64,000 nucleotides of DNA from Microbacterium foliorum (GTDB taxonomy: Bacteria; Actinomycetota; Actinomycetes; Actinomycetales; Microbacteriaceae). Location of the stretch: assembly GCF_003367705.1 (NCBI RefSeq), contig NZ_CP031425.1:2418001-2482000 (forward strand), in the 5' to 3' direction. A program made the position numbers and the translations under genes. The notes beneath the pieces were generated by a model that was not told where the DNA came from, did not search any database, and was given only the letters and a program-made list of their open reading frames with translations. Of the stretch, positions 28,933 through 34,021 are shown piece after piece; within the stretch, counting starts at the first letter, position 1, and each line of letters starts with the position of its first letter.

Positions 28933-29661
28933 ATGAGCACCGATCTCCCCGAACTGCACCGTCCCGACGGCTCTCCGCTGCGCATCCTCGCCGTCGACGA
29001 CGAGCAGATGCTCACCGACCTGCTCGCGATGGCGCTGCGGATGGAGGGCTGGGAGGTGCGCACCGCATCCTCCGGTCTCGAGGCCCTGCAGGTCGCACGC
29101 GAATTCGAGCCGGACGCCCTGGTGCTCGACATCATGATGCCCGACCTCGACGGGATGGCTGTACTGCGCCGACTGCGTGAATCCGGCAGCCTCGTTCCCG
29201 TGCTCTTCCTCACCGCGAAGGATGCTGTCGGCGACCGCGTCGCGGGCCTCACCGCCGGCGGCGACGACTACGTCACCAAGCCCTTCAGCCTCGAGGAGGT
29301 GATCGCGCGACTGCGTGCCATCATCCGCCGCACCGGGCATGCGATGGCCGACGAGGGGCAGTCGATCCTGCGGGTGGCCGACCTCACCCTCAACGAGGAC
29401 AGCCACGAGGTGATGCGCGACGGCACCGAGATCGAGCTCACCGCCACCGAGTTCGAGCTGCTGCGCTACCTGATGCGCAACGAGCGCCGGGTGCTGTCGA
29501 AGGCGCAGATCCTCGATCGGGTCTGGAGCTACGACTTCGGCGGCAAGTCGTCGGTCGTCGAGCTCTACATCTCGTACCTGCGCAAGAAGATCGACGCGGG
29601 CCGCACCCCGCTGCTGCACACCGTGCGAGGTGTGGGCTACATGATCAAGGCGCCGCAGTGA
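28933..29661 (+). CDS. OmpR-family response regulator
   Basis: 242 residues: receiver domain (about 17-130) with the acidic pair in VDDEQ, phospho-acceptor Asp66 in LDIMMPD, FLTAKD and Lys116 in VTKPFSL. A winged-helix Trans_reg_C domain fills about 145-240, with VLSKAQILDRVW and the wing VRGVGYMI. The layout resembles actinobacterial TrcR-type regulators. Its stop overlaps the start of the kinase gene, so the pair is co-expressed. Target genes are unknown. Confidence 0.93.
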   Translation: MSTDLPELHRPDGSPLRILAVDDEQMLTDLLAMALRMEGWEVRTASSGLEALQVAREFEPDALVLDIMMPDLDGMAVLRRLRESGSLVPVLFLTAKDAVGDRVAGLTAGGDDYVTKPFSLEEVIARLRAIIRRTGHAMADEGQSILRVADLTLNEDSHEVMRDGTEIELTATEFELLRYLMRNERRVLSKAQILDRVWSYDFGGKSSVVELYISYLRKKIDAGRTPLLHTVRGVGYMIKAPQ

Positions 29662-31157
29662 GCCATACGAGGATGACGCACAGGCCGATGAGCCTGCAGA
29701 CGAGGCTGATGACCGCGGTGATCGGCTTCGTCTCGCTCATCCTCGTGATCGTGGCCGTGATCACCAGCGCCCTGCTCGGGGGGACGCTCGAGCGTCAGCT
29801 CGAGGACCGGCTGGACGGTTACGCCATGCAGGTGGCGAAGTGGGCGATCAACGTCCCCGAGCAGTATGCGAGCATCGATTCCCTGCTCGACGCCACGAAC
29901 GCCGTGCCGGGGATCCTGCTCGCGGTGTCGAGCCCCGAGAACGGCACCGGCGGCGTGATCTTCCCCGACACCAAGGGACAGTGGAGCGAGGTGTCGCAGA
30001 CGCTCACGGCTGCCGATCTCGCCCGCATGGACGCCGCACTCGGCGGGCAGTCCAGCGCCACCGTCACTCTCGACGACTTCGGCTCCTACCTCGTGGTCGC
30101 GAAGCAGGCGCCGAACGGAGTCACCGTGGTGACCGGGCTCCCCCGCAACGACATCCAGAATCAGCTGGCGACGCTGCTCACGGTGATCGCCCTGGCGACG
30201 ATCGGCGGACTGATCCTGCTCGCCCTCACCACCGCGATCACGATCAGGGTCGGCCTGAGGCCCCTGCGGGCGGTCGCGGCGACGGCCACCCGCGTCGCGA
30301 ACCAGCCGCTCGATCGCGGTGAGGTCGAGATCACCGAGCGCGTGCCCGCCGCCGAAGCGGACCCGCGCACCGAGACCGGCCTCGTGGGCGCCTCGCTCAA
30401 CACCCTGCTCGACCACGTCAACGACTCGCTCGCCTCGCGTCAGAAGAACGAGGAGCGGATGCGTCGGTTCGTCGCCGACGCCAGCCACGAGCTGCGCACG
30501 CCGCTCTCGTCGATCCGCGGGTACTCCGAGCTCTCGCTGCGTGCACTGAAGCAGCAGGCCGGGGAGGCGGCGATCGAGAGCACGACCACCTCGCTCGAAC
30601 GCATCCAGGCGCAGTCGCTGCGGATGACCCGGCTCGTCGAGGATCTGCTGCTGCTCGCTCGGCTCGACGAGGGCCGCGAACTCGTGTACGGCACGGTCGA
30701 TCTCACGCAGCTGGCGCTCGAGGGCCTGTCTGACGCTCGGCCGACGGCCGCCGACCACCACTGGAACATCGAGGCACCCGACGAGCCGCTCGTCATCGTC
30801 GGCGACTCGGGACGCATGCACCAGGTGGTCGCGAACCTGCTCGCGAACGCCCGCACGCACACTCCCCCCGGCACGGCGATCACGCTGAAGGTCAGCCGCG
30901 AGGGCGACGAGGCGGTGCTCCGGGTGCACGACGACGGCCCGGGCATCGACCCAGGGGTGCGCGAGGAGCTGTTCGCGCGGTTCGCCCGAGGCGACAGCTC
31001 GCGTGCCCGCCAGACGGGTGGCACGGGCCTCGGCCTCGCGATCGTCAAGGCGATCGTCGAGGGTCACGGTGGCCGCATCTCCGTCGACAGCCGGCCGGGA
31101 GACACGACCTTCACGGTCCGCATCCCGCTGAGTCCCGGCGGAGTGACCTCTCCGTAG
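29658..31157 (+). CDS. Sensor histidine kinase
   Basis: Membrane kinase, 499 residues, partner of the preceding regulator. Transmembrane helices at about 18-40 and 171-197 enclose a 130-residue extracytoplasmic sensor. A HAMP region follows, then the phospho-His in VADASHELRTPLSS (His277). The ATPase part has NLLANARTHTPPG, DDGPGID and GTGLGLAIVKAIVEGHGG. GTG start overlapping the regulator stop by 4 bp. The signal cannot be read from the sequence. Confidence 0.93.
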   Translation: MSHTRMTHRPMSLQTRLMTAVIGFVSLILVIVAVITSALLGGTLERQLEDRLDGYAMQVAKWAINVPEQYASIDSLLDATNAVPGILLAVSSPENGTGGVIFPDTKGQWSEVSQTLTAADLARMDAALGGQSSATVTLDDFGSYLVVAKQAPNGVTVVTGLPRNDIQNQLATLLTVIALATIGGLILLALTTAITIRVGLRPLRAVAATATRVANQPLDRGEVEITERVPAAEADPRTETGLVGASLNTLLDHVNDSLASRQKNEERMRRFVADASHELRTPLSSIRGYSELSLRALKQQAGEAAIESTTTSLERIQAQSLRMTRLVEDLLLLARLDEGRELVYGTVDLTQLALEGLSDARPTAADHHWNIEAPDEPLVIVGDSGRMHQVVANLLANARTHTPPGTAITLKVSREGDEAVLRVHDDGPGIDPGVREELFARFARGDSSRARQTGGTGLGLAIVKAIVEGHGGRISVDSRPGDTTFTVRIPLSPGGVTSP

Positions 31158-31188
31158 CGGTTCTGGCCTGCATCCTCCCGGCCGGCCC

Positions 31189-31265
31189 GTTTGCAGGACC
31201 CCGGCACGGATGCAGGATCGGACGGCGGAGGTGACCCTGCATCCGTGCTTCGATCCTGCAGACGG
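31189..31265 (+). repeat. 77-bp palindrome-ended element, upstream copy
   Basis: Outer arms GTTTGCAGGACC (31189-31200) and GATCCTGCAGAC (31252-31263) are inverted repeats matching at 10 of 12 positions, with G-T pairs at the other two. Nested inside, GCACGGATGCAGG (31204-31216) and CCTGCATCCGTGC (31236-31248) match perfectly over 13 bp. The whole can fold into one long interrupted hairpin. A second copy of equal length in the same orientation lies at 32240. Confidence 0.85.
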
Positions 31266-31399
31266 CTCGCACCACTCGCCGTCCGAGGCTCTGCGACTCA
31301 GGCAGGACCTCTCCTGCACGGATCCGGATCAGGCCGGGGTCCGTCCTCGGTGCACCGTTCGCAGCCCAACCGCCCGCGTCGTCGGGCATGATCTGTCGG

Positions 31400-32233
31400 A
31401 TGCCGACCGCCGCCCATATCCTCTCCCATCTCGGCGATGCCGCCATGGGTACGACGCTGCGCCGATACGGGCTCAGTCGGCGAATCCTTTCGGCGGCGGT
31501 CCGGAATGGCACCATCCTCCGTGTGCGCAACGGTGTGTTCGCTCTTCCGACGGCTCCGCCCGAGGTGATCACCGCGGCGCAGCACGGCGGCGCCCTGACA
31601 TGTTCGGGTGCTCTCCGCTCGCACGGCGTCTGGACTCTCGACGAGGACGCCGATCCGCACGTCTGGCTGGGCGCTCATGGACGCACCCACCACGTCGACT
31701 GCACCTGCACCGGTCATTACTTCGAGGGGCGCACCCTCTTCGGGATCGCGCCGTTGGAAGACGCCCTCGTGCATGTCTATCTGTGCCGAGGCGACGAGGC
31801 CTTCTTCGTCGCCCTGGAATCCGCTCTGCGCTTGCGCCTGGTCGAAGCCGCAGGTCGCGCGCGGATCCGCTCCCGACTGCCCCTGAAGGCGCAATGGCTC
31901 ATCGACCTTGCTCGGGCCGACGCCGACAGCGGCCTCGAATCGCTGCTGCGACTGCGGCTTCACCTGCTCGGCATCCTTCTCGAATGCCAAGTCGAGATCC
32001 CCTCGGTCGGGAGGGTGGACTTGGTGATCGACGGGAGGCTCATCCTCGAGGCCGACGGTACCGGCAACCACGGCGACGCCGCGCATCGGCACCGCGACCT
32101 GATGCGGGATGCGGAAGCATCCCGGCAAGGATTCGAGACCCTGCGATTCGACTACGCGATGATCGTGCACGACTGGCCGATCGTGGCAGCGGCCATCGTG
32201 TCCGCTGTCGCTCGGCTTCACGCCCGGTTCTGA
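31400..32233 (+). CDS. AbiEi-type HTH plus DUF559 (PD-(D/E)XK-like) protein
   Basis: 277 residues. Residues 5-50 resemble the AbiEi antitoxin-like winged helix, with RNGTILRVRNGVFALP. The C-terminal ~100 residues look like DUF559/Vsr-type nuclease folds: SGLESLLRL (Glu180), then VGRVDLVID (Asp207) and LILEADG (Glu217, Asp219), a basic HRHRDLMRDAE helix and GFETLRFDYA. A DNA-binding nickase or endonuclease is inferred; no cognate AbiEii-like toxin is present. An ATG at 31388 would add four residues; the CATGAT hexamer 7 bases before 31400 favours the shorter form. The gene sits between two 77-bp repeats. Confidence 0.72.
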   Translation: MPTAAHILSHLGDAAMGTTLRRYGLSRRILSAAVRNGTILRVRNGVFALPTAPPEVITAAQHGGALTCSGALRSHGVWTLDEDADPHVWLGAHGRTHHVDCTCTGHYFEGRTLFGIAPLEDALVHVYLCRGDEAFFVALESALRLRLVEAAGRARIRSRLPLKAQWLIDLARADADSGLESLLRLRLHLLGILLECQVEIPSVGRVDLVIDGRLILEADGTGNHGDAAHRHRDLMRDAEASRQGFETLRFDYAMIVHDWPIVAAAIVSAVARLHARF

Positions 32234-32239
32234 CGCACC

Positions 32240-32316
32240 GTTTGCAGGACCACGGCACGGATGCAGGACCAGAAACCCCGGAACGTCCGCAGAACGTGCC
32301 CCGATCCTGCAGACGG
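32240..32316 (+). repeat. 77-bp palindrome-ended element, downstream copy
   Basis: Same orientation and exact length as the copy at 31189. The first 30 bases differ at two positions and the last 21 at two; the centre has diverged and the inner right arm has decayed. It begins 6 bases after the DUF559 stop and could also act as that gene's terminator. Confidence 0.85.
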
Positions 32317-32329
32317 ACCAGACGTGCGC

Positions 32330-32446
32330 CGTGGGCCCGGAGGTGGACCGAGGCCCGGACCCGGACCCGGAAGAAACGGGACGAGACACGGAGCCCGACC
32401 CCGGACCCCGACCCCGGACCCGGAACCTGGACCGGACCTCGGACCG
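32330..32446. repeat. GGACCC-type low-complexity tract
   Basis: An irregular run of GGACCC, CCCGGA and CCCCGA units fills the gap between the downstream palindromic element and the stop of the FNR-fusion gene. No gene is visible in it. Confidence 0.6.
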
Positions 32447-34021
32447 TCAGTACCCGGCGAACGCGTCGGTCGTCAGGGACCTCGCCTTGCGGAGAGCCGG
32501 GGCGAGGTCGGCGATCAGGCGCGGCGGACCCGAGATGTACGAGTGCCGTTCGTCGAGATCGTGCACGTGCCGCTCGAGTCCCGCGGCATCGAGTCGGGCA
32601 CCCTGCGCCCAGCTCCAGTGCGCGGGCAGATCGCTCGGCTCATCGCGGGTGAACACGATCACCCGCGCTCCCGTCTCCGCGAGCTCGTCACGGAACGCGA
32701 GCTCCGCGCTGCTCGACGCCACGTACACGAGGACCACGTCGCGTCGCTGCCCTGTCAGCTGCAGCTGCCGCAGCTGCGACACGAACGGGGTGACGCCGAT
32801 CCCCGCCGCGACCATCAGAACGGGTGTCTCCTCTCGCGGCAGCAGGAAGTCGCCCCAGGTGCCCGTGACCGCGAGGCCGGCGCCGGGCACGGCATCGGCC
32901 AGTGCGCGCTTGTAGCTCGACGGATGCGCCTGATCGCCGTGCTTGTAGGCGATGCGCAGCGTGGGAAGGTCCGCGGGAGCCGAGACGATGCTGAACTCTC
33001 GTCGGGTGCCGCGCACGTCGGGGCGGCGATGCGGGACGTCGAGTTCGAGGTACTGACCCGGCAGGAACTTGACGGGCCCCTCGACCCGGAAGGTGAGCTC
33101 CTGCGCTGTCGGGGTGACCGAGCGCCTCTTCTCCAGCACCAGCTTCACGGATCCGCGCAGGGCGAAGGCGAACGCGAGCAGGTTCCCGATGATCAGCGCG
33201 CGCTCCTGTCCGAGGGTGAACAGCGAACCCACGGCGATCGGCCAGCCGGCGAGCACACCCACCAGCGCCGCCACCGAGAACTGCTGCCAGCGACGCGGCG
33301 GCAGGGTCAGCGGCTCGGACAGCATGAACGCGCCGAGGAACAGGAACGGAGACTGCAGCACGGCGAACGACAGGGCCGTGCCCACGTCGAACGCGAACGA
33401 TGCCTCCTGCGCCTGGACCGCCTGGCGCAGGACCGACACCGCGACCGCGATCACCAGGAAGATCACGACGATGCGCACCTTCTCGGTGCGCCACAGCACG
33501 GCGAGACCGAGGATGGCGACCGGGACGAGAAGCGTGGGGGTTCCCGCCCACCATGACGACGATGTTCCCAGCCACTCGAAGGCGCCGAAGGATCCGAGGA
33601 TCGAGACGACCGAGGCGCCGAACGCGGCGGGATTGACGATATGCCTGCCCCGCCACACGATCAGGTACTTCGAGAGGCTCGCGACCACTCCGGCGATAGC
33701 GAGCCCGAGGAGCGCGCTCGGCTCGATGCCGGGGCGGAGCACGAACAGCAGGATCAGCGCGGTCACGAGAGACGACTCGATGCGCCACGGTCGGCGGAGG
33801 ATGCGCTGCGCGGCCGCGTCGACGAGGGAGATCACCACCGCGAGCACGACCAGGGAGACGAGGATCTCGACCGGAGTGGGCGACACGATCACCCCCAGTG
33901 CCGACATCACCAGAGCGATGGCCGTCAGCGCGACGAGCGCGAACAGCACCATTCGGTACATCGAGATGCCGCCGAGCAGCGCGAGGACGCGCTGGCGTGC
34001 GGAGGTGATGAAGGTGATCAC
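32447..34021 (-). CDS. RnfD/NqrB-like membrane domain fused to FNR-type oxidoreductase
   Basis: 524 residues. Residues 1-290 contain about eight to nine transmembrane helices of the RnfD/NqrB kind, with HIVNPAAFGA and GAFMLSEPLTLPPRRWQQ. The C-terminal half is a ferredoxin-NADP reductase module: FLPGQYLEL and REFSIVSAP bind flavin, VAAGIGVTPFVSQLR binds NAD(P), and YISGPPRLI completes it. It should move electrons from NAD(P)H across the membrane. The two downstream genes encode a flavin transferase and an FMN-binding lipoprotein, the likely acceptor side. Confidence 0.82.
   Translation of the reverse strand: MITFITSARQRVLALLGGISMYRMVLFALVALTAIALVMSALGVIVSPTPVEILVSLVVLAVVISLVDAAAQRILRRPWRIESSLVTALILLFVLRPGIEPSALLGLAIAGVVASLSKYLIVWRGRHIVNPAAFGASVVSILGSFGAFEWLGTSSSWWAGTPTLLVPVAILGLAVLWRTEKVRIVVIFLVIAVAVSVLRQAVQAQEASFAFDVGTALSFAVLQSPFLFLGAFMLSEPLTLPPRRWQQFSVAALVGVLAGWPIAVGSLFTLGQERALIIGNLLAFAFALRGSVKLVLEKRRSVTPTAQELTFRVEGPVKFLPGQYLELDVPHRRPDVRGTRREFSIVSAPADLPTLRIAYKHGDQAHPSSYKRALADAVPGAGLAVTGTWGDFLLPREETPVLMVAAGIGVTPFVSQLRQLQLTGQRRDVVLVYVASSSAELAFRDELAETGARVIVFTRDEPSDLPAHWSWAQGARLDAAGLERHVHDLDERHSYISGPPRLIADLAPALRKARSLTTDAFAGY

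Follow-up and report, generated by a model that had tools for sequence, protein, structure and literature searches.

A toxin-less AbiEi-DUF559 nuclease gene of Microbacterium foliorum bracketed by cognate palindromes: a candidate REP/RAYT-like system with a non-homologous enzyme

The 64,000-nucleotide stretch of the Microbacterium foliorum chromosome analyzed here (hereafter the window) contains a nuclease-like gene with a copy of one four-half-site palindrome on either side. Many related genes stand between palindromes of their own, which differ from gene to gene, and in the families examined the cognate palindromes are also dispersed in the same genome, their presence varying between close relatives. 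The per-gene matching of the flanks implies that the nuclease recognizes the palindromes. On balance, gene and repeats probably constitute a cognate palindrome-nuclease system that works like REP/RAYT with an enzyme from another superfamily; having a non-homologous enzyme, it is not a member of that group. Self-regulation in addition is possible. The locus comprises the following features, in coordinates of the window:

29658..31157, plus strand: histidine kinase, left neighbour, retained at empty sites
31187..31265, no strand assigned: upstream palindromic element of 79 bp, with four TGCAGGA half-sites, two per arm, about 18-19 bp apart, and a 13-nt variable centre
31388..32233, plus strand: gene encoding an AbiEi-like DNA-binding region and a DUF559/EDxHD nuclease, 281 aa as annotated
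31394..31915, plus strand: AbiEi-like region, residues 3-176, with a winged helix at about residues 1-56
31922..32224, plus strand: Vsr-like nuclease domain, residues 179-279, with invariant E184, D211, D223, H228 and D237
32238..32316, no strand assigned: downstream palindromic element of 79 bp, beginning 4 bp past the stop codon, inner right arm degraded
32447..34021, minus strand: NAD-binding reductase, right neighbour, convergent, retained at empty sites

The two repeats had originally been described as 77 bp long, equal in length and in the same orientation. Both are indeed present, equally long and in direct orientation, with a start-to-start spacing of 1051, but their true length is 79 bp. 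The conserved ends and diverged centre of that description were confirmed (36 nt at 92% and 22 nt at 91% between the two copies), as were the inverted TGCAGGA arms and the inner inverted repeat of copy 1, a perfect 13-bp stem (GCACGGATGCAGG/CCTGCATCCGTGC). Copy 1 is a 33-nt inverted repeat, 82% complementary, and the arm consensus of the element, CCGTCTGCAGGACC...GGCACGGATGCAGGA, is that of an imperfect palindrome with two half-sites per arm. The distance from the end of the upstream element is 122 bp to the annotated ATG and 134 bp to the second ATG at 31400, which is probably the true start because most aligned homologues begin there. Folded as single-stranded DNA, the two copies have z-scores of -5.66 and -4.54, and 0 of 200 dinucleotide shuffles fold equally well. 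All four exact occurrences of CCGTYTGCAGGA in the window lie at the ends of the two repeats; with up to two mismatches the window has 23 matches versus 13.9 expected, and the exact motif is found 13 times genome-wide versus 0 times for the reversed control pattern. On the motif counts, shuffled folds and genome-wide copies, an origin of the repeats by chance or as terminators was rejected. Structured RNA was also considered and rejected, Rfam returning at this locus only two microRNA matches, both under the gathering scores, and no match reaching the gathering score at six other gene loci. Short GC-rich tandem repeats (for example GGACCCGG or GACGAACGAGG) adjoin the downstream palindrome at 32340-32440 and occur likewise in the flanks of some dispersed palindromes (L033, L034 and L029); at L033 and L034 they are absent from the close relative G134 together with the palindrome.

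The protein had been predicted to join a winged helix-turn-helix to nuclease-like residues of the DUF559 type, and this assignment agrees with the Pfam matches, the invariant residues and the winged-helix model. For the bracketed gene product the DUF559 match exceeds the Pfam cut-off. When this product and 25 relatives were scanned at E<=0.1, DUF559 was matched in 26 of 26 proteins, REase_MTES_1575 in 25, AbiEi_4 in 21, AbiEi_3_N in 9 and DUF7574 in 1, and no HUH/Y1 transposase family was recovered. Fold searches also listed no HUH match, a result that alone would not exclude HUH, and no NCBIfam family matches the gene product. Residues S181, E184, D211, D223, H228 and D237 are invariant among 26 relatives. 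The N-terminus models as a winged helix and residues 3-176 match the fold of the AbiEi antitoxin (PDB 6y8q) with a middling Z, while the nuclease domain matches the EDxHD homing endonuclease I-Bth0305I (PDB 3r3p) and Vsr (1vsr). Homologues are in places annotated as AbiEi family antitoxin. With a histidine kinase on one side and a reductase on the other, the gene has no toxin partner next to it, as originally noted, and no AbiEii gene at this locus. The gene is under purifying selection, with a dN/dS of 0.17 against the 75%-identical orthologue of Microbacterium sp. Leaf320, and its nuclease residues are conserved.

In order to compare bracketing across related genes, these were listed by protein similarity in 149 genomes of the genus (93 with E<=1e-40), and 111 loci were used, consisting of the first 91 entries and 20 more distant ones, 18 of the latter from genomes positive for R1, a covariance model made from eight palindrome copies. 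The 210-nt upstream and downstream flanks of 107 usable genes were then aligned all versus all. A gene's own downstream flank was the best match in 58 of the 107 cases, among the top three in 81 and among the top ten in 95 (about 1, 3 and 10 expected), and ranked worse than tenth for 12 genes. The mean own-flank score was 56.0 versus 21.0 between different genes, the maximum of 10,000 permutations being 24.8, and 55/107 own-flank scores lay above the 99th percentile of different-gene scores. Top-three ranks were obtained by 62/88 genes of the closer group and 19/19 of the distant group. In the 55 genes over the 99th percentile, the matched block is 83 bp long, ends 89 bp before the ATG on the upstream side and starts 27 bp past the stop on the downstream side (all medians).

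A second set was drawn from named relatives, the best 80 of 210 being kept, all of them Microbacterium or named only at higher rank, and 77 genes were tested. The own flank ranked among the top three in 57 and first in 28; for the 45 genes not common to the first set the figures were 35 and 16. Here the mean own-flank score was 61.2 against a permutation maximum of 28.1, and scores above 46 were reached by own flanks in 48/77 cases versus 0/76 for control segments from the same loci (maximum 27); since near-identical orthologues are included, different-gene scores in this set have their 99th percentile at 67. An association of the palindromes with DUF559 genes, an expectation of the original prediction, is borne out in the 107- and 77-gene tests by gene-matched flanks far beyond chance. 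Flanks of the same gene (mean 56) are also more similar than upstream and downstream flanks of different genes with 70-80% identical proteins (mean 33.5, 68 pairs), the mean at 80-100% identity being 48.9 (8 pairs). Over all pairs, protein identity and palindrome similarity correlate weakly (Spearman 0.23).

Several further analyses describe the bracketing elements themselves. An R1 match lies within 250 bp of the gene in 36/91 loci, at both ends in 19, and the distant group yields 2 weak matches in 20 loci. Where both ends match, the better strands agree in 14 cases, differ in 4 and tie in 1, although strand means little because the element is nearly palindromic. A de novo scan inspected by eye revealed palindromes of 80-95 bp at the bracket positions of many of the loci shown, with gene-specific sequences. 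At a strict threshold, set at the 99th percentile of 218 control regions, 44/111 upstream and 32/111 downstream flanks contain a palindrome, and 20 loci do so on both sides. Across the 111 loci, close and distant groups alike have their lowest mean upstream folding energy in the segment beginning 160-180 bp before the ATG, at -36 and -41 kcal/mol versus about -22 to -33 elsewhere upstream; the downstream minimum is less marked and, for the distant group, not distinct. In the distant clade (L176-L195) the inner half-site is often the common GACACGCCG (upstream 11/19, downstream 13/19) and the outer half-site is gene-specific; ACACGCCG occurs in 2/38 control segments. Near-perfect palindromes of about 40 bp (CGGATGCCGCG...CGCGGCATCCG), probably terminators, lie near the genes at L089, L099, L106, L116, L117 and L124.

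Beyond the gene, the R1 search of the 3.57-Mb genome recovered at least 20 distinct places at E<1e-8, all of 78-80 bp and including the two bracketing copies, so that at least 18 TGCAGGA palindromes are dispersed elsewhere. Under strict filters an R1 match at E<=0.01 was present in at least 56 of the 149 genus genomes, this one included. These counts are lower bounds, the scan of the own genome having scored the best 150 of 2,315 first-look candidates and that of the genus 31 per genome. The recurrence of the element that had been anticipated is thus observed both in the genome and in the genus. Of the 20 own-genome copies (G000:C1), 12 are no more than 490 kb away from contig position 0, in a region covering about 28% of the chromosome. 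At genome level, the gene (E<=1e-40) occurs in 43/56 R1-positive and 50/93 R1-negative genomes (Fisher p 0.005), a modest association of the kind expected if R1 detects only one of many families. The 13/56 genomes with R1 palindromes and no gene at E<=1e-40 could be explained by relics like that of G134, described below. Genome G118 has six members of the gene family and no R1 palindrome among the 31 candidates scored per genome.

The dispersed copies show turnover between close relatives. Of 13 dispersed sites of the own genome, G134 has the element at 7 and lacks it at 5; at the remaining one, an orthologous intergenic site (L031 versus L399, G134:C1:825800-827200), the own genome has a TGCAGGA palindrome and G134 one of a different family, GGATGGCTGAC. 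Palindromes of this GGATGGCTGAC type also flank another DUF559 gene, and intergenic sites seem to be reused by different palindrome families. In six site alignments the element-free sites also lack about 50 to 200 bp more, for which reason the ends of the elements and any target duplications cannot be defined; precise empty sites at dispersed copies were sought in these alignments and none was obtained, nor was target duplication seen. A crude gene finder based on codon usage placed 5 of 16 dispersed sites between convergent gene ends, 2 in tandem gaps and 8 overlapping an ORF, with 1 unclear; the 8 overlaps are probably false calls in GC-rich DNA.

Agreement between the two arms at variable positions amounts to 107/238 in 17 oriented copies, two tandem pairs included, versus 119.1 (sd 6.4) after shuffling, and to 196/400 in 25 copies versus 209.2 (sd 8.3). 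This test gives no positive signal for a hairpin maintained through compensatory change, and the conserved portion of the element is the half-site itself, four times. Both observations favour a protein that reads duplex half-sites over one that reads a hairpin, and the recognized hairpin originally envisaged is accordingly disfavoured.

Occupancy of the kinase/reductase locus was compared across 30 loci. The gene is present in 5 (own included), palindromes occur without the gene in 2, the gap is at most 80 bp in 14, other content is found in 6, and in 3 the kinase lies outside the locus with no gene match. Empty sites, which had been expected in relatives, are therefore found at this locus; one of the 14 short gaps, that of G015, has a short inverted repeat. 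The gene-less palindromes are one TGTCGGGAG copy in G005 and three of another type in G001. The closest relative seen is G134, whose kinase is 94% and whose reductase is 97% identical; it retains both palindromes around a decayed, internally deleted gene (L071, G134:C3:108500-113500, about 2275-2932), and dispersed palindromes are likewise present in it. Four further genomes (G002, G021, G022 and G029) have the gene at the locus with palindromes of TGTCGGG type, not TGCAGGA, on both sides. Gene orientation also varies: gene and reductase are on opposite strands in the own genome (G000), G134, Leaf320 and G021, and share a strand in G002, G022 and G029 (L196, L204, L287 and L071 versus L199, L200 and L201). 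Both orientations at one locus imply an inversion of the segment between the palindromes or more than one arrival of the gene. Inversion could occur by recombination between the near-palindromic brackets, and the bracketed segment may be invertible; the opposite orientation in G002, G022 and G029 speaks against simple vertical inheritance at the locus. When the oppositely oriented copies are excluded, the gene evolves faster than its neighbours, being 75% identical in Leaf320 (kinase 87%, reductase 87%) and 64% in G021 (kinase 80% over 40 residues, reductase 76%), both with the same locus and orientation.

Other genes of the own genome show comparable arrangements. Gene 1197062 is bracketed by CCCGATCTGCGG palindromes, with 5 near-full-length copies dispersed elsewhere. 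Dispersal is weakly supported for gene 945095, with 12 pattern matches versus 2 for the control, the sole exact match being the gene's own. In G111, a ACGATCAGCACAC palindrome occurs at no fewer than 6 places, two bracketing the gene and 4 dispersed; this family has any match in 10/149 genomes, nearly all weak outside G111 and G064, and at most six candidates per genome were scored, so that copy numbers are lower bounds. The gene itself looks chromosomal on the sequence searches made: it has no match in 50,697 phage records, two peptide patterns found no relative in viral contigs, and among plasmid records four hold distant relatives.

The favoured reading suggests the following mechanism. The AbiEi-like winged helix would recognize the half-sites in double-stranded form, probably as dimers bound to both arms of the palindrome. 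AbiEi binds inverted repeats at its own promoter and so restrains its own expression, and by analogy the upstream copy may let the present protein do likewise. The Vsr/EDxHD domain would nick or cut at or near the bound element, and repair or copying over evolutionary time would rarely seed new intergenic palindromes and also keep the palindrome copies alike, the gene itself remaining in few copies. Gene conversion could be another cause of the bracketing copies staying alike.

Three other explanations have to be weighed against this one. The protein could be a self-regulated transcription factor with a regulon, its nuclease unrelated, the palindromes being operators, with looping or insulation of the gene by the flanking pair and with the dispersed copies as other targets. 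The AbiEi-like fold is in keeping with this, and so are the near-fixed upstream distance (block end at a median of 89 bp before the ATG) and arms that do not covary, as in duplex operators. Operators do not readily account, however, for a cognate copy past the stop codon, for the dispersed sites between convergent ends or in tandem gaps (5 and 2 of 16, by the crude gene finder), for copies gained or lost between close relatives, or for the invariant nuclease residues, and we regard this explanation as unlikely. It is more improbable still that the DUF559 genes are passengers, merely binding palindromes that another enzyme or replication slippage spreads, or occupying palindrome-rich hot spots. 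Hot spots do exist, as indicated by the different families at the orthologous site shared with G134, the unrelated palindromes in the kinase/reductase gap of G001 and the two gene orientations seen at that locus in different species; yet a hot spot leaves unexplained why the same motif stands on both flanks and differs from gene to gene.

The remaining alternative, to which we give the least credence, is that gene and two palindromes form one mobile or invertible unit, IS-like or homing, moved by the nuclease, with single palindromes as its remnants. Such a unit would fit a locus that is filled, decayed, palindrome-only or empty in different relatives, a gene that is found there in both orientations and the structural match to the I-Bth0305I homing endonuclease domain. 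Against it, the two other genes of the own genome are 55 and 58% identical to the bracketed gene, and the genes are mutually divergent and not recent copies; phage and viral matches are lacking in the records searched, and neither target duplication nor a clean end appeared in the six site alignments. A mobile module had also been part of the original prediction; the scattered palindromes, however, look more mobile than the gene, whose copies are usually few and mutually divergent and have no phage or viral match in the records searched.

To our knowledge, REP palindromes have so far been linked with a single class of enzyme, the HUH RAYTs. According to PMC2817692, RAYT genes are always located between two REPs, coevolve with them, outpace their neighbours in evolution and correlate with REP abundance; PMC8049555 describes them as single-copy genes with vertical inheritance. 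The present system resembles REP/RAYT (REPIN) in having a gene between two cognate palindromes, dispersed copies, gene and palindrome that change together and a fast gene, judged by the RAYT traits given in these two sources. The REP/RAYT-like character originally proposed is thus well supported as an analogy by the recurring element, the gene-matched flanks and the empty locus. However, the enzyme is AbiEi-like with a Vsr/EDxHD domain, and the element measures about 79-95 bp with four half-sites and arms without covariation. The flanking copies appear mostly direct where RAYTs would lead one to expect an inverted pair, although strand has little meaning in so nearly palindromic an element. 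Copy number also differs, with about 6-20 per genome in the families examined (lower bounds) versus the usual >100 reported for REPs (PMC2817692). CGTC-tagged REPs, mostly from alpha-Proteobacteria, are likewise palindromic and intergenic and are reported without a dedicated transposase, but have stems of 8-9 bp (PMC3733652); DUF559 does not occur in that paper. The similarity to the AbiEi antitoxin of type IV toxin-antitoxin systems lies in the fold of residues 3-176; here a nuclease domain is added, no AbiEii partner is present at the locus and palindromes also occur downstream and dispersed. The nuclease fold is that of I-Bth0305I and Vsr; unlike a homing endonuclease, the protein has an AbiEi-like DNA-binding part and is encoded by a free-standing chromosomal gene between two intact genes, with no intron or intein setting.

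Literature searches, whose scope included few subscription papers and no bioRxiv preprints, found no report of a DUF559-palindrome system; titles and abstract beginnings of papers on DUF559 contained nothing on palindromic repeats, and a search combining RAYT, Actinobacteria and REP as whole words returned nothing. The AbiEi/EDxHD nuclease is a new candidate enzyme for palindromic repeats without a known transposase, such as the large class reported in PMC3733652 to lack a dedicated one, and if the broader proposition set out below is true, such enzymes could be the missing partners of transposase-less palindromic repeats. Also, toxin-less AbiEi-DUF559 genes gain a testable role. Because so many genes own palindromes on both sides, they provide a large natural set of protein-site pairs from which a specificity code could be read by comparison, perhaps usable for DNA recognition.

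A broader proposition is that a non-HUH AbiEi/EDxHD nuclease both recognizes and itself spreads the four-half-site palindrome, its specificity re-tuned with the palindrome across an order of Actinomycetota, which would make it an independent second class of REP system; this we advance tentatively, as possible though short of probable. Relatives of the gene occur in 68/198 genomes of the order at E<=1e-15, and the loci inspected numbered 27 from the search and 5 from the own genome, one of the latter yielding no match. The upstream-downstream flank score exceeds 46, a threshold uncalibrated for these loci, in 8/27 order-wide loci (L263, L266, L272, L273, L276, L277, L282 and L283), and several others, e.g. 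L264, L270, L271, L279 and L286, have no flank pair. In G235, from another family of the order and with a protein 30% identical, the gene is bracketed at 883414 and 884478 and the palindrome recurs at 11 further places; none was found in 6 other genomes of that genus. At L016 of the own genome (G000:C1:3393643), the flanks of a 34%-identical DUF559 gene match each other with a score of 131 and carry a different motif.
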